Shown here piece after piece: positions 1 through 35,240 of a DNA stretch of 38,737 nt. This DNA comes from Promethearchaeota archaeon Loki_b32 (GTDB lineage Archaea > Asgardarchaeota > Lokiarchaeia > Sigyniarchaeales > SOKP01). The translations under genes were made by a program, and so were the position numbers. A model generated the notes under the pieces. The model was not told where the DNA came from, searched no databases, and saw nothing but the letters and a program-made list of their open reading frames with translations. Location: positions 1-38,737 of the forward strand of contig NJBH01000036.1 of the NCBI GenBank assembly GCA_005223125.1, written 5' to 3'. Numbering within the stretch: position 1 is the stretch's first letter; each line of letters begins with the position of its first letter.

Positions 1-213
1 GAGGAATCAAATTTAGGTTCGAAACCCCGATGTTTTATTATAATCTTCTTCACCTGATATTTTTATTAAAGATTTTGAGTATATATCTATTCTTCATAAT
101 TTAATAGTTCTATATGAAAAAGTGAGATTATTTAATTTAAAACTATTTAATAAGCTTAAGATTAATAGCAATTTTTAGATATATTACTATAATATAAAAA
201 ATGTGACTGAAAA

Positions 214-768
214 ATGAAAAAAGTATCATTAAGTCCAAAAATCTCTACATTCCCCATGCCCACCGCAGTAATTTCGGTGGGTACGGGAGAAGAAGCAAAT
301 TTAATCACATTGGCCTACGTAGGAAAAGTATGTGCTGATCCTCCCATTGTTGTTGTTTCTATCCGACCCCCAAGACATTCATATCAATTGATTGAAAACC
401 ATAGTGAGTTTGTAATTAATTATCCAACAATAGATCAATTAAAAGAAACAGATTATTGTGGGACACGTTCTGGAAGGAATGTTAATAAATGGAAAGAGTT
501 AAACTTAACTAGAGAAGAAGCTTCAGTAGTAAAAGTCCCTATGATAAAGGAGTTTCCTTGGAACATGGAATGTACAGTGATAAATAGAATAGAATTAGGA
601 ACACATGTCTGCTATTTTGGTAAAGTTGTAGCAACACACTCAGATCCTAAGTATATCAAAACTGATTCTTTGGATCCAGAAAAATTTCATTTTCCAGCAT
701 ATATAGCAGGTAATTACCTCGAAATAAAAAGTGGTATTTTAGAAAAACATGGTTTTTCAATAGAATGA
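214..768 (+). CDS. flavin reductase-like (FMN-binding split-barrel) protein
   Basis: The 184-residue protein has the layout of the flavin reductase-like / flavoredoxin family, which binds FMN in a split beta barrel and reduces flavins or passes electrons. The N-terminal half carries family-like stretches: PMPTAVISVGT near residues 14-24, LITLAYVGKVCADPP near 31-45, and VVSIRPPRHSYQLI near 48-61, followed by 'EFVINYP'. There is no signal peptide or membrane segment, so it is a cytosolic protein. It stands alone, 49 nt upstream of the shikimate kinase gene on the same strand. The family is clear; the physiological electron donor and acceptor cannot be told from sequence. Confidence 0.85.
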   Translation: MKKVSLSPKISTFPMPTAVISVGTGEEANLITLAYVGKVCADPPIVVVSIRPPRHSYQLIENHSEFVINYPTIDQLKETDYCGTRSGRNVNKWKELNLTREEASVVKVPMIKEFPWNMECTVINRIELGTHVCYFGKVVATHSDPKYIKTDSLDPEKFHFPAYIAGNYLEIKSGILEKHGFSIE

Positions 769-1407: not shown

Positions 1408-1607
1408 ATGACAGAATTTAAAAGAGTAAAGTGTCCTCAATGTGGCAATGAAAATCCACGTAAGCTTCATGAGGAAAACGACAGGAATAATGTGCTTTAT
1501 TACAGTATAGGTAAAGCTAGTTCAGCCTACCGCTGAAGCAGGGCACTCCTGTTTATGCTAAGAATATGAAATGCGGCGGATGTGGCAATATTTTCAAAAA
1601 GAATTAA
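1408..1607 (+). CDS. small zinc-ribbon protein, gene split by a 29-nt intron
   Basis: The gene is readable only as two exons, 1408-1508 and 1538-1607. Exon 1 begins MTEFKRVKCPQCGNENP and runs to VLYYS; exon 2 gives QGTPVYAKN, then KCGGCGNIFKKN and TAA at 1605-1607. The two parts are in different frames. Removing 1509-1537 (29 nt, 2 modulo 3) joins them as YYS-M-QGTPVY, a 56-residue protein with two CxxC knuckles (CPQC, CGGC) that make one complete zinc ribbon. Without removal, exon 1 reads into TGA at 1534-1536. No homologue could be searched, so the function is unknown; a nucleic-acid or protein-binding zinc ribbon is the likely class. The intron is described separately. Confidence 0.75.
1509..1537 (+). 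other. 29-nt bulge-helix-bulge mRNA intron in the zinc-ribbon gene
   Basis: The segment can be folded as an archaeal splicing-endonuclease substrate. Exon nucleotides CAGT (1503-1506) pair with GCTG (1532-1535), one pair being T-G, as the 4-bp central helix. The 5' bulge is ATA (1507-1509, cut after the second base). The 3' bulge is AAG (1536-1538, cut after the second base). Inside, GGTA (1510-1513) pairs with TACC (1528-1531). An outer GTGC/GCAC pairing (1492-1495 with 1543-1546) is possible across an internal loop. Cutting at these bases gives an ATG codon at the joint and restores the frame. The geometry is seen in sequence; splicing itself is inferred. Confidence 0.72.
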
Positions 1608-20866: not shown

Positions 20867-21928
20867 TTATTGAAGTTCAATTATGAAATGGGTATTTTCT
20901 TTTTTGATAAGATAATTTCTATTTAAAAATAATTTAATTAATTCTAGATTAGTTTTAGTATGATTTGTTATTTTAAGAACTTTTATTCTTGATGGGTCTT
21001 TAACAAAACCCATGAAAGGAATTAACTGATCGCTTAAGTAATTGTCAATAGGTATGCCATTTTCTATATATTTAAGAAGTTCATTAGCAGCGAGTTCACC
21101 AAGTTTCTCCGAAGTAATATTTCGTTCACCTAATATTGTTCCAGAGGAAATAATAGCACCAGTATCTGAACTTGCCCATAAAGAAAGTCCTACTCCAGGA
21201 CTTAATGAATGTACGTAATTATAATCAATTTTAAAATTATAATCTAGATTTTTCTTTAAATGTTTTAAAACAGATGTTCTTATTCTTTCACCTACCTTGT
21301 TTTTTCTTAATTGGTTTGTAATTATTATTTCACCGCGAATTAAGTCAATTTTTCCAAGTTCTGTTAATGATATTGGCTTGAGTTTATCTTTAGGAGGATA
21401 TAAAGTACATTTAACAATTGCCCCTCCCTTTGGATAAAATCCGTGTTTTTGGATATTAATATCGATATCATATCCATGATTTCTGAAAATCTGATAAGTA
21501 ACTTCTTTAAGATAGTTAAGACTTGGAGCCCATTTGCCAAATGTCCCCCCACCATTAATTAAAATTTCTATTTTCTCTGGTTTGTTAAAGCCTAAGCATG
21601 CGATTTGAATTGGCTGAAGTAATAGCCCTATGTTCCCTGCAGTTCCAATTTTCACTTCAATTTTACTTTGTAGTGTTTGCTTAGGATATAATGTGATCTC
21701 TTTTGTTCCAACCTGACATTCCGATAAGGAGCTATTTGTTAAGTTAGCCAAAGCCTCTAATCCCTTTAAATGCTGGAGTCGTAATCCGGACTTTGGTCTA
21801 TTTGCTCTTATATTTTTTATTCGAATTGGGCGTTTTAATAATATTGAAAGTCCTGCACCTAATCTTAGTATTGAACCTCCACCTTCTCCAAAAGAACCGT
21901 CAATAACTATAAGTTCTGAGTCATTCAT
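20867..21928 (-). CDS. rtcA: RNA 3'-terminal phosphate cyclase
   Basis: A 353-residue RtcA that converts RNA 3'-phosphates to 2',3'-cyclic phosphates with ATP. DGSFGEGGGSILR is at residues 10-22, RIKNIRANRPKSGLRLQHL follows, and the family motif HGFYPKGGA is near 161-169. A conserved C-terminal His-containing segment is not obvious by eye, so the adenylation site should be checked against a family alignment. It overlaps the end of the Nudix-NMNAT gene by 8 nt, so the two are translationally coupled. Confidence 0.9.
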   Translation of the reverse strand: MNDSELIVIDGSFGEGGGSILRLGAGLSILLKRPIRIKNIRANRPKSGLRLQHLKGLEALANLTNSSLSECQVGTKEITLYPKQTLQSKIEVKIGTAGNIGLLLQPIQIACLGFNKPEKIEILINGGGTFGKWAPSLNYLKEVTYQIFRNHGYDIDINIQKHGFYPKGGAIVKCTLYPPKDKLKPISLTELGKIDLIRGEIIITNQLRKNKVGERIRTSVLKHLKKNLDYNFKIDYNYVHSLSPGVGLSLWASSDTGAIISSGTILGERNITSEKLGELAANELLKYIENGIPIDNYLSDQLIPFMGFVKDPSRIKVLKITNHTKTNLELIKLFLNRNYLIKKENTHFIIELQ

Positions 21929-27101: not shown

Positions 27102-28469
27102 TTATTTATGTGTTATTTGTTTATACGCTTTTTCAAATCTCTCGACAGCAGAAACAATGTCTTTTTTTGTTGATCCAATAGCGGCATTCATAACAATATA
27201 AGGGGTTAGATAATTACTACAACATGTCCCAAATAGTTTTTCTTTAGGGTTATATACGCGTGGTCCGGTAACTCGTAAATTATATAAAGCACCACCCAGA
27301 GCATACAATTGATCTTCTTTTAAATTTTTAAGTGATACTGCTACTGCTACTGGATTGAAAATGTTGAGCACTCTTTCATTTAATTTTTCTGCTACTTCTT
27401 TTAGTTTTATTTCAAGTATTTCACGATTCTGTTGTTGTTGTTCAATTAATTTTTGATAACCTGTAATTCCCATTGATAACATTGAAATTAAGAAATTTAC
27501 GATGGGGGTGGCTGAAGCTCGCCCCGGATATGTTTGACTGATTTTTGTTATATTCTCTTTGGTAGGTGAAGCTATTACTGCTCCCCCGATAGGAGTAAGA
27601 AAATTCTTATCAGTTGATTGAATAATTGCATCTACTCTACCTGCGTCAATTGCAGAGCGAATCATTTTCATCCACTCGGGGCTTTGTACGCCATATGCGT
27701 TTATAATAATATGAACTAGGTTGTTTTGTTGAGCAAATTTGCTAATTTCTTTAATATCGTCATGTTCGCGAGGGGGGAAAAAACTTGTCACTGAGATTAC
27801 TGCAAAACATTCATCATCTAAATTATTCCTTATATCATCAATGGGTATTCTAACAGCATCCCCAAAAATCTTTCCACTGATAATTTTTGTTTTAAATCCC
27901 AACAAATTAATCGATTTTAAAAGTGATTTATGATCAATTTGAGGAATCAATACTTTTCTTTTTAAATTTTGAGGGTCTTCATTCTGATCTGGTTTTAATG
28001 CACCTAAAACTAAGGATAGTGACATTCCTGTACATATTGGGACCACAATTGCAGCTTTTATGTTAGGTAATCCAAAATTTCTTAATACATTTCGAGCCAA
28101 GTAGTTAGAAAGATGATACATTATAGATCCTCCTGGTGCTTTAGGTTGAGCGGCTGTTAGAAAACCACTTCTCCCTACACCATGGCAAAATCCTGCTGAA
28201 GTTTTTAAATGAAGCTTTGAAGCTATCCTTGCCTCTCTTTCCCCAACTCTTGCTGCATTCTTATCTTTATCAGTATCCATATTTGATAGCGTTTGAAGTA
28301 GGAATTCAATTTGTTCATCAGTCCAAGGCTCTTTAGGTACAGATCTTTGTTCGAATAAGATTTTTATCGGATTCATGAACTCATTTAAAACAAGTTGACC
28401 TCTGTTAAGCATATTTTCAGGAATATTCAAATTTTCAAAAAAATCGATAATTTTATTAAAATCAACCAT
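27102..28469 (-). CDS. spcS: O-phosphoseryl-tRNA(Sec) selenium transferase (SepSecS)
   Basis: A 455-residue PLP enzyme that converts phosphoseryl-tRNA(Sec) to selenocysteinyl-tRNA(Sec). N-terminal arginine-rich substrate loops are present: ARVGEREARI near 73-82 and GVGRSGFLTAAQPKAPGGS near 97-115. The PLP lysine is Lys288 in IIQSTDKNFLTPIGG. The C-terminus has the family GTCCSNYLTPYIV stretch. It starts 33 nt after the tRNA-Sec gene on the same strand, so enzyme and substrate tRNA probably share a transcript. PSTK and selenophosphate synthetase are not in the window. Confidence 0.95.
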   Translation of the reverse strand: MVDFNKIIDFFENLNIPENMLNRGQLVLNEFMNPIKILFEQRSVPKEPWTDEQIEFLLQTLSNMDTDKDKNAARVGEREARIASKLHLKTSAGFCHGVGRSGFLTAAQPKAPGGSIMYHLSNYLARNVLRNFGLPNIKAAIVVPICTGMSLSLVLGALKPDQNEDPQNLKRKVLIPQIDHKSLLKSINLLGFKTKIISGKIFGDAVRIPIDDIRNNLDDECFAVISVTSFFPPREHDDIKEISKFAQQNNLVHIIINAYGVQSPEWMKMIRSAIDAGRVDAIIQSTDKNFLTPIGGAVIASPTKENITKISQTYPGRASATPIVNFLISMLSMGITGYQKLIEQQQQNREILEIKLKEVAEKLNERVLNIFNPVAVAVSLKNLKEDQLYALGGALYNLRVTGPRVYNPKEKLFGTCCSNYLTPYIVMNAAIGSTKKDIVSAVERFEKAYKQITHK

Positions 28470-28520
28470 TATAAACTCACGATATCAGTTTTAATAATAA
28501 ATTGGCGGCCCTCGAGGAGA

Positions 28521-28550
28521 TTTTCGAAGATCAGGTAATTCATAACCATT
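28521..28550 (-). other. 30-nt T-loop intron of tRNA-Sec
   Basis: On the minus strand TTCG pairs with CGAA as a 4-bp central helix. The bulges are ATA and AAT, with the T stem GGAG/CTCC as outer helix. Excision gives the canonical T loop TTCGATT (a shift of one base gives TTCGAAT). The inner helix is weak. Confidence 0.75.
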
Positions 28551-28606
28551 ATCGAACTCCTATCCCTCCGCAGGATAACTGGGTTTGAAGCCCAGCGTCA
28601 GAGACC

Positions 28607-28636
28607 ACTTATCGCCAAAGATCTGAGTGATCTTTA
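28607..28636 (-). other. about 30-nt D-loop insertion of tRNA-Sec (approximate ends)
   Basis: Between D-stem strands the loop is 36 nt (28603-28638) instead of about 4-6. It holds a perfect hairpin, AAAGATC with GATCTTT and loop ACTCA, next to ACT/AGT pairing. An intron is the simplest reading, but the exact cut sites could not be fixed. An enlarged D arm retained in the mature tRNA is the alternative. Confidence 0.6.
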
Positions 28637-28735
28637 GTTCCGACCGTCAAGGGCCATTTTAAATTCTATTTATTTAATAAGTTAAAGTATATTAATTTTA
28701 TTGAAGTTTTCGGTTTAATAATATTATTCTTTTGT

Positions 28736-29641
28736 TTAATTTTTTCTACAATTTAACCTAATCCTTTTCTTATAAAAGCTATTCTGGTAATTATCTAACA
28801 TTTCGTTAAATAATTTGGCTCCTAAATATAATTTATGATTACCTTTATATGAATAAATCTTATTTTTTATATTGAATTTTTCAGAAATTTGTAATAGAAA
28901 TTTTTTACTACCAGATGTAATTCTAGAAGTTCCTGTTGTGCCATCTCCATCAAAATATCCAAGAAGAAATGCTAAATATAATTCTCGACTTTTTAAAACA
29001 AGTAACTCAATATTTTTAGATTTTGTATTTCCAACAATAAATCTATTTTTTACCAACGTATCTCCTATTTTATCATTTGTAATTCTTATTCTAACAGTAT
29101 TTGATTTTTTGTATTATCTTTTATTCTTAGGATTGATACCTACGGCTACACAAAATTGATCTAAGATAATTTCATCATCTTTATTAATCTCTAAACCTAG
29201 CCTAAGGTTATTTCTTAATTGTGTAATATAACCATCAGCATATAAAAATCCAAGCCAATAAGCTTTTTCTTTATTATCTATATGTAAAAAGTAATCAAGT
29301 TTAATATTTGGATGAAATTTATAGATACGCTCATTTGTACTTCTAAGGCTATTTAAATTTTGATACTTTTCAATTAATTTAATTGCATTATCACATTTTT
29401 TAAGACATTTGCAGAATAAATTAGATTTGATTACCTCTAAATCTTCTAAACTTAATTGAAAATTAGGATTTCTTTTAGAGTTTTTATTAATACGATAAGC
29501 CAAATTAGGAGTATTATTTAAAATTTCACTTAGTTTCCTATAAGATAATACCTTATTACAATAATTATTAGGTGAAATTATTTTCTGTAATTCTAATTTT
29601 AACTCTTTTAAAAGCATTAAAGCTGTATAAGATTTATTCAT
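28736..29641 (-). pseudogene. LAGLIDADG homing endonuclease, interrupted by one stop codon
   Basis: One continuous frame contains two LAGLIDADG motifs, AYWLGFLYADGYI and AFLLGYFDGDGTT, the catalytic aspartates of a monomeric homing endonuclease. A single in-frame TAA (29114-29116) separates them. The remaining 300 codons are open, so decay is recent, or the stop is an error or suppressed. The N-terminal 110 residues are a basic helical region (YRKLSEILNN, NSKRNPNFQL) that could bind DNA. It lies 80 nt upstream of the intron-bearing tRNA-Sec on the same strand. It is not inside any intron I can recognise. Confidence 0.85.
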
Positions 29642-29824
29642 CGTCTTTTATTTCAGAAATAAATATTGTTTAAGAAAAGAAATCAATTGTTTATTTATAA
29701 ATAAATAGAGTTTATGGATTTATTTGCAATACAATTAATGGCAGTATACAATAATTAGATTTATATATCTTTTTAAAAAAAGTTTTTGGTTATAGATAAT
29801 GATGCTGTAAATATTCTAGGAAAA

Positions 29825-31042
29825 TTAATAAAAAAGTTCTGAAACATCTCTTCCTTCTTCAAAAATGCTATTGGTCTTCTCCATAATATCAGGGATATCA
29901 ATTTGTTGAGGGCATTTCTCAAGACACTCTCCACATTGAATACATAGACTTGCAGCTCCTTCTACTTCATCTCCTTGAGACAATCCTTTTTCTAAAGCTC
30001 CTTGTGTTTTTACCATCCTATCATAAAAAAATGAAATTCTAGCTTTACGCTCTTCACCCCAATATCCTAGTTCATTTAAAAGTCTAAAAACAAATGGAAT
30101 AGAAACGCCATTTGGACATGGTAAGCAATATCTACAACTAGTACAGGGCACCAGATCATATCTATCATAAGCATCCCGTAACTCAGAAATAGTTTTCAAT
30201 TCATCTTTAGTTAAACTGTTAATTGCCGAATTATTTGCGGATTCGATATTTTCTTTAACTTGTTGCATATTGCTCATTCCACTTAATACGACGCAAACTT
30301 CAGGATGGTTCCAGACGAATTGTAAAGCCCAATCAGCCAAAGTTCTTTTGGTTTTTGAGTTATCTAAGATTGTTCTAAGTTCTGGTTTTGTATCTAATTT
30401 ATCCTCTGTAATAGCCAACTTTCCACCTCGAATAGGTTCCATGATTATTAATGCTATATTTTTACTTCCTGCATATTCTACTCCTTTGGTACCCGCTTGA
30501 TATTCTACATCAAGATAATTATATTGAATCTGGCAACAATCCCAATTATAATAATCAATTATTTCTTTAAAGACTTCAAAATTATCATGAAATGAAAACC
30601 CTATATATTTAAATAAGCCTCTCTCCCTCGCATCTTCCATCTTTTTAATTAGATTTAATTTTTTGATTTTTTCTAGTCGATTTTTAGTTAAACCATGGAA
30701 TAAATATATATCAAGATTACTTTGCAATCTATCGATTTGTTCACTAAGAAATTTATCAAAATCTTCAGAATTTTTTACTGCCCACATAGGTAATTTTGTA
30801 GTAAGATATACTTTCTCACGATAACCTTCTTTGAGAGCTTTCCCAACTATTACCTCACTTTCCCCATTGTGATAAGGATAAGCAGTATCAATATAATTTA
30901 CACCGTTATCGATTGCATAACGAATCATTTTAATAGCTTCTTCTTCATTGACAGTAGTTTGATCAATCATAGGAAACCTCATAGCACCAAATCCAAGAAC
31001 AGAAACATCCCAGTTAAGGGATCCCATTTTTCGATATTTCAT
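29825..31042 (-). CDS. aldo/keto reductase with C-terminal 4Fe-4S ferredoxin-like domain
   Basis: A 405-residue oxidoreductase. The AKR barrel has the catalytic tetrad Asp52 and Tyr57 (NYIDTAYPYHNG), Lys83 (LTTKLP) and His116 (IYLFHGL). The C-terminal part (about 297-390) holds iron-sulfur cysteines in CTSCRYCLPCPNGV and CIQCGECLEKCPQQ. This fused type is common in anaerobic archaea and bacteria and probably links NAD(P)H to ferredoxin-like electron transfer. The substrate is unknown. It is a single-gene unit on the minus strand. Confidence 0.92.
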   Translation of the reverse strand: MKYRKMGSLNWDVSVLGFGAMRFPMIDQTTVNEEEAIKMIRYAIDNGVNYIDTAYPYHNGESEVIVGKALKEGYREKVYLTTKLPMWAVKNSEDFDKFLSEQIDRLQSNLDIYLFHGLTKNRLEKIKKLNLIKKMEDARERGLFKYIGFSFHDNFEVFKEIIDYYNWDCCQIQYNYLDVEYQAGTKGVEYAGSKNIALIIMEPIRGGKLAITEDKLDTKPELRTILDNSKTKRTLADWALQFVWNHPEVCVVLSGMSNMQQVKENIESANNSAINSLTKDELKTISELRDAYDRYDLVPCTSCRYCLPCPNGVSIPFVFRLLNELGYWGEERKARISFFYDRMVKTQGALEKGLSQGDEVEGAASLCIQCGECLEKCPQQIDIPDIMEKTNSIFEEGRDVSELFY

Positions 31043-33821: not shown

Positions 33822-35240
33822 ATGGAAAATGAAAAGAAAATCCCAATACACATTGGATTGTTTGGGCATATTGATTCTGGAAAAACTAAAATTGCTTCAG
33901 TACTCAGTGAAATAATTTCTACAGCTGGACTTGATGCTCATCCACAAAGCAAAGAACGAGGTATAACTATTGATTTAGGTTTTACCAGTTTTTTACTTGA
34001 CAAATATTTAATTACATTAGTAGATGGTCCAGGTCACGCTGATTTAATAAAGATTAGTGCTTCTTCTGCAGAAATTATTGATTGCGCTTTAGTTGTTATT
34101 GATATTAATAAAGGACCTCAAGTTCAAACTGGAGAACATCTCATTTTGATTGAATCACTTAAAATCAATAAAATAATTGTTGTTATTAATAAAATTGATA
34201 TATTTTCTGGAGATATTGATGAAGAGTTAAAAAAAATAAGAGAATTTTTCGGATCTACTAGTTTTGGTTACGAAGTACCAATTTTTGCTGTGTCTGCGAA
34301 AGAAAAAGCTGGATTTGAAGAACTAAAAAACGGTATATTAGAAACTATAAACTCTTTCCAAATAGAAAGAAATACAAAAGGAGATATAATAATTCCTATT
34401 GATCATCATTTCCCAATTAAAGGAATGGGAGCAATATTAACAGGTACAATTTTGAGTGGGATATTAAAAGTAAATCAAAATTTAGAAGTTATACCAGTAA
34501 AGACTTCTGGTAGAGTTAAAAGTATTCAAATATTCCATCAAAATGTTGATAGTGCTAATGCTGGTGATAGAGTTGGGATTAATATAAAAGGGTTAGATTT
34601 GAAAAAGATTTATCGTGGTTGTTATGCTACAAATAACCCTAATGCTTTTGATTATTGTAATGTATTTGAAGTAAAAGTAAACAATAATAAACTATTCAAA
34701 CCAAAAACAGGCTTTGGAACCCAAATCCACATTACTATTGGGATGGTAACTACTACTGGAAATGTTTATCCTTTTTATGATTTGGATGGAAAGTTGATTC
34801 AAACAACAGCTTCAAATAAAAATAGGGGTTTTAGGGCAATAATATTATTAAAGGAAAAAGTTTTAATTAGAAAAGAGAAACATATTATGCTTCTAAGCCG
34901 ATTAGATCTACCTCCCACTACTTTGAGAATACTAGGATCAGCAGAGTTGTTGAAAATATATGAAGAACCACCAGTATTTTATAAATATAAAACAAAAAAA
35001 GGAGTTATCAAAAATCCAGATCATCCTCAGGGAATTGTATGTTTAGGCTTGGCACAAAGCGCTACTGGCGCAAAAAAAATAGTAGGAAAATCATTAGAAC
35101 CTCCCTTCACTAAAATATTAGATACGTTTGGTACTAAAGGTGCTATTATCGTGGGTATTAGTGATAATGAAAAAAGGGTAAAGAAAGGAGATCCCGTTTT
35201 TCTAAAAGAATTAAGAAATTTTCGACTAAAAAACATTTAA
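33822..35240 (+). CDS. selB: selenocysteine-specific elongation factor SelB (EFSec)
   Basis: A 472-residue GTPase that delivers Sec-tRNA(Sec) to UGA codons with a SECIS element. G1 is GHIDSGKT (15-22). The switch region KERGITIDLGF follows, G3 is VDGPGHADL, and G4 is VINKIDIF. EF-Tu-like domains 2 and 3 follow (IPIDHHFPIKGMGAILTGT). The C-terminal domain 4 is short and lacks the winged helices of bacterial SelB, as in archaeal and eukaryotic EFSec. The Roadblock gene starts 31 nt downstream. With SepSecS and tRNA-Sec about 6 kb away it shows that the organism encodes selenocysteine. Confidence 0.94.
   Translation: MENEKKIPIHIGLFGHIDSGKTKIASVLSEIISTAGLDAHPQSKERGITIDLGFTSFLLDKYLITLVDGPGHADLIKISASSAEIIDCALVVIDINKGPQVQTGEHLILIESLKINKIIVVINKIDIFSGDIDEELKKIREFFGSTSFGYEVPIFAVSAKEKAGFEELKNGILETINSFQIERNTKGDIIIPIDHHFPIKGMGAILTGTILSGILKVNQNLEVIPVKTSGRVKSIQIFHQNVDSANAGDRVGINIKGLDLKKIYRGCYATNNPNAFDYCNVFEVKVNNNKLFKPKTGFGTQIHITIGMVTTTGNVYPFYDLDGKLIQTTASNKNRGFRAIILLKEKVLIRKEKHIMLLSRLDLPPTTLRILGSAELLKIYEEPPVFYKYKTKKGVIKNPDHPQGIVCLGLAQSATGAKKIVGKSLEPPFTKILDTFGTKGAIIVGISDNEKRVKKGDPVFLKELRNFRLKNI

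Follow-up and report, generated by a model that had tools for sequence, protein, structure and literature searches.

The window analysed here is a stretch of 38,737 nt (contig NJBH01000036.1) from Promethearchaeota archaeon Loki_b32, and the coordinates given are positions in that window unless another locus or contig is named. It contains a tRNA-Sec gene that is interrupted by two introns and is neighbored by other genes for the use of selenocysteine (Sec) (Table 1). The next gene downstream, 33 nt away, encodes SepSecS, and a gene for a SelB-like elongation factor lies about 5 kb upstream. Between the tRNA-Sec gene and an aldo/keto reductase gene are a decayed LAGLIDADG endonuclease gene and a relic of the native tRNA-Sec promoter region; in the intronless relatives of the window's group the reductase directly precedes tRNA-Sec. 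The earlier note on this DNA had the limits of the tRNA-Sec gene right; the gene is read from the minus strand, and a plus-strand reading, in which the loop would carry UGA, was dropped. A gene for an RNA 3'-terminal phosphate cyclase is also found in the window (20867-21928, minus strand).

Table 1. Features of the tRNA-Sec locus (window positions) and loci of relatives with anticodon-loop introns
Feature	Position	Strand	Remarks
tRNA-Sec gene	28503-28655	minus	153 nt, two introns
Exon 1	28639-28655	minus	17 nt; 5' acceptor strand and D-stem nucleotides 1-6
D-intron central helix, exon strand	28641-28644	minus	GUCG, then bulge GA^A
D-arm intron	28609-28638	minus	30 nt; inner helix 9 bp, loop 5 nt
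D-intron central helix, intron strand	28611-28614	minus	CGAU, then bulge AA^G
Exon 2	28551-28608	minus	58 nt; remaining D arm, anticodon arm, variable arm, 5' side of T arm
Anticodon	28586-28588	minus	UCA
T-intron central helix, exon strand	28553-28556	minus	UUCG, then bulge AU^A
T-loop intron	28521-28550	minus	30 nt
T-intron central helix, intron strand	28523-28526	minus	CGAA, then bulge AA^U
Exon 3	28503-28520	minus	18 nt; 3' side of T arm, 3' acceptor strand, G73, encoded CCA
SepSecS (O-phosphoseryl-tRNA(Sec) selenium transferase)	27102-28469	minus	PF05889, 370 bits
Decayed LAGLIDADG endonuclease gene	28736-29641	minus	PF14528; directly upstream of tRNA-Sec
Relic of native tRNA-Sec promoter region	29752-29827	minus	71/76 identical to G001
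Aldo/keto reductase with 4Fe-4S domain	29825-31042	minus	
SelB-like Sec elongation factor	33822-35240	plus	GTP_EFTU, aSelB_III
tRNA-Sec genes with anticodon-loop intron	L134, L136, L141, L142, L146, L148, L153, L191, L192, L197, L198		9 of 11 also with T intron

Anatomy and splice motifs of the tRNA-Sec gene

The diagnostic features of tRNA-Sec that the earlier note had listed are all present: a 9-bp acceptor stem (GGCCCTTGA/TCGAGGGCC, including one G-U pair), a 4-bp T stem, the UCA anticodon, a long variable arm, G73 (28506), and an encoded CCA (28503-28505). The note's expectation that about 60 nt would have to be spliced out holds as well. Removal of the two 30-nt introns, 28609-28638 and 28521-28550, leaves a cloverleaf of 93 nt with a predicted folding energy of -46.6 kcal/mol, in which the acceptor has 9 bp, the D stem 7 bp with a 4-nt loop, the anticodon and variable stems 6 bp each, and the T stem 4 bp. 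The spliced RNA thus has the 9/4 body and, with UCA, G73, and the long variable arm, the further marks of an archaeal or eukaryotic tRNA-Sec, of which a 7-bp D stem and a 4-nt loop are expected (PMC5330540). Its layout is that of the intronless relatives, and 93 nt is also the length in 22 intronless genes (19 in the family and 3 in the outgroup). The CCA is encoded here and in all 61 complete genes of the family, and it is absent from outgroup genome G030; one review describes the CCA of archaeal tRNA-Sec as not encoded (PMC9499178), and we did not count its absence from the gene as a defining feature of the tRNA-Sec fold. The RNA is predicted to be charged with Sec and to decode UGA.

At its borders with the exons, each of the two introns has the bulge-helix-bulge arrangement, in which a helix of 4 bp lies between two bulges of 3 nt. 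The outer helix of the T intron is the T stem itself (GGAG/CUCC), while the outer helix of the D intron is poor, with 2 pairs. If every bulge is cut behind its second base, the product matches the intronless genes exactly in layout. The D stem is interrupted by the D intron between base pairs 6 and 7, and the T intron lies within the T loop, at a site that we take to be 59/60 in the usual tRNA numbering. The earlier note had therefore seen a real D insertion, but its extent is 28609-28638 rather than 28603-28638, it does not lie in the D loop, and its hairpin is of 9 bp with one G-U pair instead of a perfect 7 bp; the T insertion had been delimited exactly, its site shifting from the proposed 58/59 by the numbering just given. 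An alternative in which the D intron would pair with AGUGG of the exon was inconsistent across relatives and was discarded in favor of GUCG/CGAU.

The cut site of the D intron is constant in the 30 genes that have one, except for a one-base shift in both copies in G004, and 28 of the 30 have all four central pairs (counting the shifted G004 form). The central pairs vary in a compensatory manner among relatives, as GUCG/CGAU, GUUG/CAAU, and GGUU/AACC. All four central pairs can form in 22 of 24 distinct D introns, 13 of 29 distinct T introns, and all 10 anticodon introns, where shuffled introns lead one to expect 0.7, 0.8, and 0.06, respectively. The remaining 16 distinct T introns have three of the four pairs, so that all 29 reach at least three, versus 6.1 expected; the T intron of the window has four. 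The bulge-helix-bulge pairing of the tRNA-Sec introns is not due to chance. We put at roughly 94% the probability that this archaeon's single detected tRNA-Sec gene, with bulge-helix-bulge introns in the D stem and the T loop, is spliced to a 93-nt tRNA-Sec.

Copy number and intron states among relatives

ARAGORN reported no tRNA in the window, and Rfam did not detect the tRNA-Sec there at its gathering score; with a lax threshold, Rfam gave a misaligned tRNA-Sec match of 23.9 bits at the gene. When the loci of seven relatives were searched, the two intronless ones of the same genus scored 61 to 62 bits, where the gathering score is 47. Since both ARAGORN and the curated Rfam score miss the gene, tRNA finders may overlook Sec decoding in such genomes. 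The earlier note had named a second, uninterrupted tRNA-Sec gene as the finding that would speak against its reading, and a search of the window genome allowing up to three mismatches found no second tRNA-Sec. The genome is a draft of 71 contigs (95.5% complete, 4.6% contamination), and a second copy could for that reason be missing from it. It also has 15 weak Rfam matches to tRNA-Sec, and the 8 that were examined as loci comprise the gene described here, five ordinary tRNAs, and two further non-Sec tRNAs into which about 30 nt are inserted. These last two, L001 (at 35.2 bits the best tRNA-Sec match in the genome) and L007, were rejected as a second tRNA-Sec; their anticodons read as Gly UCC and Lys UUU, respectively. 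The non-Sec tRNAs with insertions lie at 1500-1601 (minus strand) in L001 and at 1501-1604 (plus strand) and 182-283 (minus strand) in L007, and the inserted stretches, roughly 30 nt long or longer, are in the T arm, the variable region, and the anticodon region. Insertions of about 30 nt at odd sites are thus not peculiar to tRNA-Sec in this genome.

A tRNA-Sec gene was found in at least 62 of the 65 genomes of the window's family (f1); it was not found in G048, G071, or G073 among the matches listed. Introns are present in 42 of the 61 complete genes, in five combinations of three sites: D and T in 21 genes, D only in 9, anticodon and T in 9, anticodon only in 2, and T only in 1, with 19 genes having none. 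These counts leave out the partial genes of G044, G070, and G013 (two contig ends in the last). The anticodon introns are at 37/38, and none of 64 tRNA-Sec genes has both a D and an anticodon intron, for which shared descent may account. Mapped onto a tree of SepSecS, the states require at least 19 changes (D, 12; T, 13; anticodon, 3), counts that are approximate because the tree is of a single gene, with 64 rows and 10 weakly supported forks; it is without G031, G033, G035, and G048, and the rows for G013, G037, and G044 have no state. A genome usually has one tRNA-Sec gene, which makes this gene well suited to following the gain and loss of tRNA introns, and with six intron states in 61 complete genes and readable flanks, the gain of archaeal tRNA introns, by mobile elements or otherwise, becomes directly testable.

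G004, which is a single contig, has two tRNA-Sec genes (L101 and L102), both with a D intron whose sequence has diverged, and the second adjoins a SepSecS fragment in which the first 89 residues are matched. The tRNA-Sec genes of G006 (L090/L091) and G013 (L097/L098) are at contig ends. The two ends in G013 overlap by about 54 nt and may represent a mixture of strains with and without the T intron; the end without it has the GGAG T stem that is otherwise seen only with a T intron.

Traces of probable gene rebuilding upstream

The LAGLIDADG gene upstream of the window tRNA-Sec has one in-frame TAA and so does not have an intact frame; read through that stop, it matches its domain with an E value of 1.1e-10. 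Beyond it lies the promoter relic, whose first three bases are the stop codon of the reductase and whose counterpart in G001 directly precedes the intronless tRNA-Sec of that genome. About 1 kb containing the decayed nuclease gene thus parts the relic from the two-intron gene. G013 has the same arrangement, with a LAGLIDADG copy 81% identical to that of the window but more decayed, with stops present, and G007 has a LAGLIDADG remnant, so that nuclease remnants occur at three of the seven intron-bearing loci of the reductase group. The gap between reductase and tRNA-Sec is 11 to 98 nt in all nine intronless genomes of that group, compared to 114 to 1173 nt in six measured intron-bearing genomes and about 1180 nt in G013 (rank test, p 0.0005, a value that overstates the case because the species are related).

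In G015 (L017, about 912-1310), the native promoter region is followed by a stranded 5' part of an intronless tRNA-Sec, a fragment of a protein family, and then a complete two-intron tRNA-Sec. The stranded piece is of 24 nt, with 23/23 bases matched plus one inserted base, and it ends in the D arm. A leftover of the old tRNA at the far border, as would be expected of a tRNA-targeting integrative element of the pNOB8 type, is present in G015 and was not seen in the window or in G013. Taken together, the promoter relic upstream of the decayed LAGLIDADG gene in the window and the stranded 5' half in G015 indicate that some of the intron-bearing alleles were probably brought in by elements that disrupted the tRNA-Sec gene and then restored it.

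In some close pairs of genomes, the upstream flanks switch while the downstream flanks follow the species: upstream and downstream identities are 0.69 and 0.95 for G000/G001, 0.70 and 0.95 for G019/G059, and 0.49 and 0.80 for G001/G011, with a shuffled background for upstream flanks of 0.56 (standard deviation, 0.13). For G010/G015 they are 0.64 and 0.57. Among pairs with a SepSecS identity of 0.84 to 0.90, those that agree in D state (35 pairs) have a median upstream identity of 0.80, versus 0.62 for those that differ in it (12 pairs); at a SepSecS identity of 0.80 to 0.84 there is no such contrast between the D states (0.63, 16 pairs; 0.68, 65 pairs). G053 and its sister G060 have identical D introns and T introns that are 63% alike, and the T intron of G053 is 93% like that of G015, a member of another genus.

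These observations suggest a tentative scenario in which the two-intron alleles of the Lokiarchaeota spread on small elements, some with a nuclease gene, that would disrupt the D arm of a resident intronless tRNA-Sec gene and swap its promoter and 5' part for intron-bearing ones. The intron would split the target, making the rebuilt gene immune, and Sec decoding by the host would come to depend on the spliced, element-borne gene; we regard this full sequence of events as quite possible, short of an even chance. An idea of Randau and Soll, that introns guard tRNA genes against integration, is cited in PMC3293823 and PMC4090602. For tRNA-Thr of Caldiarchaeum, a model of gene disruption has been proposed in which the intron comes with the element (Sugahara et al. 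2012, PMC3293823), and the mechanism suggested by the window relic and the G015 fragment would closely match it, as well as the idea of Randau and Soll. Like the tRNA-Sec locus of G015, the Caldiarchaeum locus has a 5' fragment with fewer introns upstream, mobile DNA between, and a tRNA with one more intron. Its insert, of 1.8 kb, holds a recombinase gene, whereas the DNA inserted at the tRNA-Sec loci contains a decayed LAGLIDADG gene (window, G013, and G007) or the protein-family fragment (G015), and no integrase was found.

Alternatively, the introns may be ancestral in the family and have been cleanly lost many times, with the promoter differences reflecting ordinary drift. Exact loss of an intron leaves no trace, same-site D introns are similar across genera, and the sisters G022 and G049 have flanks and a D intron in common, their differences being confined to the T intron and one T-stem pair, all of which this account would explain. 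It does not fit as readily with a native promoter region surviving upstream of the 1-kb insert, with the 5' half of an intronless gene lying upstream of the two-intron gene in G015, or with the G015-like T intron of G053 beside a D intron identical to that of its sister, and we consider it unlikely as an overall explanation. Arrival on elements, the reading that we prefer for some alleles, would nevertheless not be the whole story of the intron states, given the G022/G049 pair, the limited number of loci with nuclease remnants, and the retention of most of the native promoter region in G004, where the D intron is present without the T intron. Nor are the two protein families generally found beside tRNAs, a notion that we rejected for both: among relatives of the LAGLIDADG gene, ARAGORN tRNAs are present at 1 of 20 loci and Rfam matches at 2 of 18 (L211 and L230 left out), and 10 loci of the G015 fragment family have no tRNA match. 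Finally, a Pfam search of the neighboring genes and the G015 fragment family found no integrase, which a pNOB8-type element would be expected to have next to the rebuilt tRNA.

The G015 fragment family (L232-L242) consists of proteins of about 550 residues, with several copies in some Lokiarchaeota, and has invariant His-His and Asn residues that may point to an HNH nuclease; its predicted fold (mean pLDDT, 66) was too poor for a structure search. On contig C21 of G000, some 230 bases separate another LAGLIDADG relative (146734-147615) from a weak tRNA-like match (146435-146505, 17 bits).

Processing of the transcript and relation to known tRNA introns

Further genes with a part in splicing and Sec synthesis lie elsewhere in the genome. 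RtcB is present (568.6 bits), as is a PSTK-like gene outside the window (137.9 bits versus a cut-off of 290.5), and there are two EndA-type loci (PF01974). The first EndA aligns to the catalytic subunit of Aeropyrum and keeps the His that is Ala in chain 3ajv_B, and the second has Asp opposite the catalytic His of 1a79. The two genes are as might be expected of one catalytic and one structural subunit and would together form a single (alpha-beta)2 enzyme, a type described as accepting displaced and relaxed bulge-helix-bulge introns as substrates (PMC6379350). In the splicing reading, then, the gene would be transcribed as a 153-nt precursor with two separate introns, EndA would cut after nucleotide 2 of each 3-nt bulge, and RtcB would join the three exons into the 93-nt tRNA-Sec, which would be charged by SerRS, PSTK, and SepSecS and carried by SelB. 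We infer this cutting and joining, and charging would wait for it.

The predicted fold of the unspliced RNA retains the 9-bp acceptor, six D-stem pairs, and the anticodon and variable stems, which is what one would want if the insertions were kept and the 153-nt RNA worked as a tRNA with extra hairpins. That possibility seems very remote in view of the canonical splice motifs with their compensatory changes, the match in layout between the spliced RNA and its intronless relatives, and the EndA and RtcB genes. A dead gene, for which the tRNA-Sec fragment in one relative might be taken as a precedent, is just as improbable for a sole detected copy that has all its stems intact, introns under pairing constraint, and an intact SepSecS gene adjoining it.

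The earlier note had also proposed that splicing must come before Sec synthesis. This order is plausible because the T loop and the D stem are each interrupted by an intron. The acceptor and six D-stem pairs nevertheless persist in the predicted unspliced fold. A regulatory dependence of Sec decoding on intron removal is not specially indicated, given that 19 of the 61 complete family genes are intronless and that insertions of similar size also occur in other tRNA genes of the genome.

A 31-nt T-arm intron in a tRNA-Sec of the Lokiarchaeota was reported by Mariotti et al. 2016, as cited in PMC5330540 and PMC9499178. That gene resembles the one in the window in lineage, intron-bearing arm, intron size, and the 7-bp D stem, but it is described with one intron, whereas the window gene has a second in the D arm and the relatives have anticodon-loop introns or none. 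Some tRNA-Sec genes of the Lokiarchaeia have been described as having "unusual insertions and deletions" (ISME Communications 2021, PMC9723677), and the authors may already have seen the D-arm insert; the word "intron" is absent from the main text of that paper, as it is from the main text of the 2024 report on the Asgard selenoproteome (PMC11227280). In the literature searched, we found no D-arm intron, double intron, or anticodon-loop intron in an archaeal tRNA-Sec, and neither the three-site mosaic nor the traces of adjacent gene rebuilding were met with in print there.

Multiple introns per tRNA are known from other Asgard archaea, the Atabeyarchaeia and Freyarchaeia (PMC11291895). These, like Caldiarchaeum (PMC3293823), share with the window gene introns at odd sites and several introns per gene; the double and displaced introns described in the two reports differ in that no such arrangement is described there for tRNA-Sec. 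The tRNA-Sec of Daphnia pulex has introns too, but it is eukaryotic and has them in the anticodon loop only (PMC5330540).
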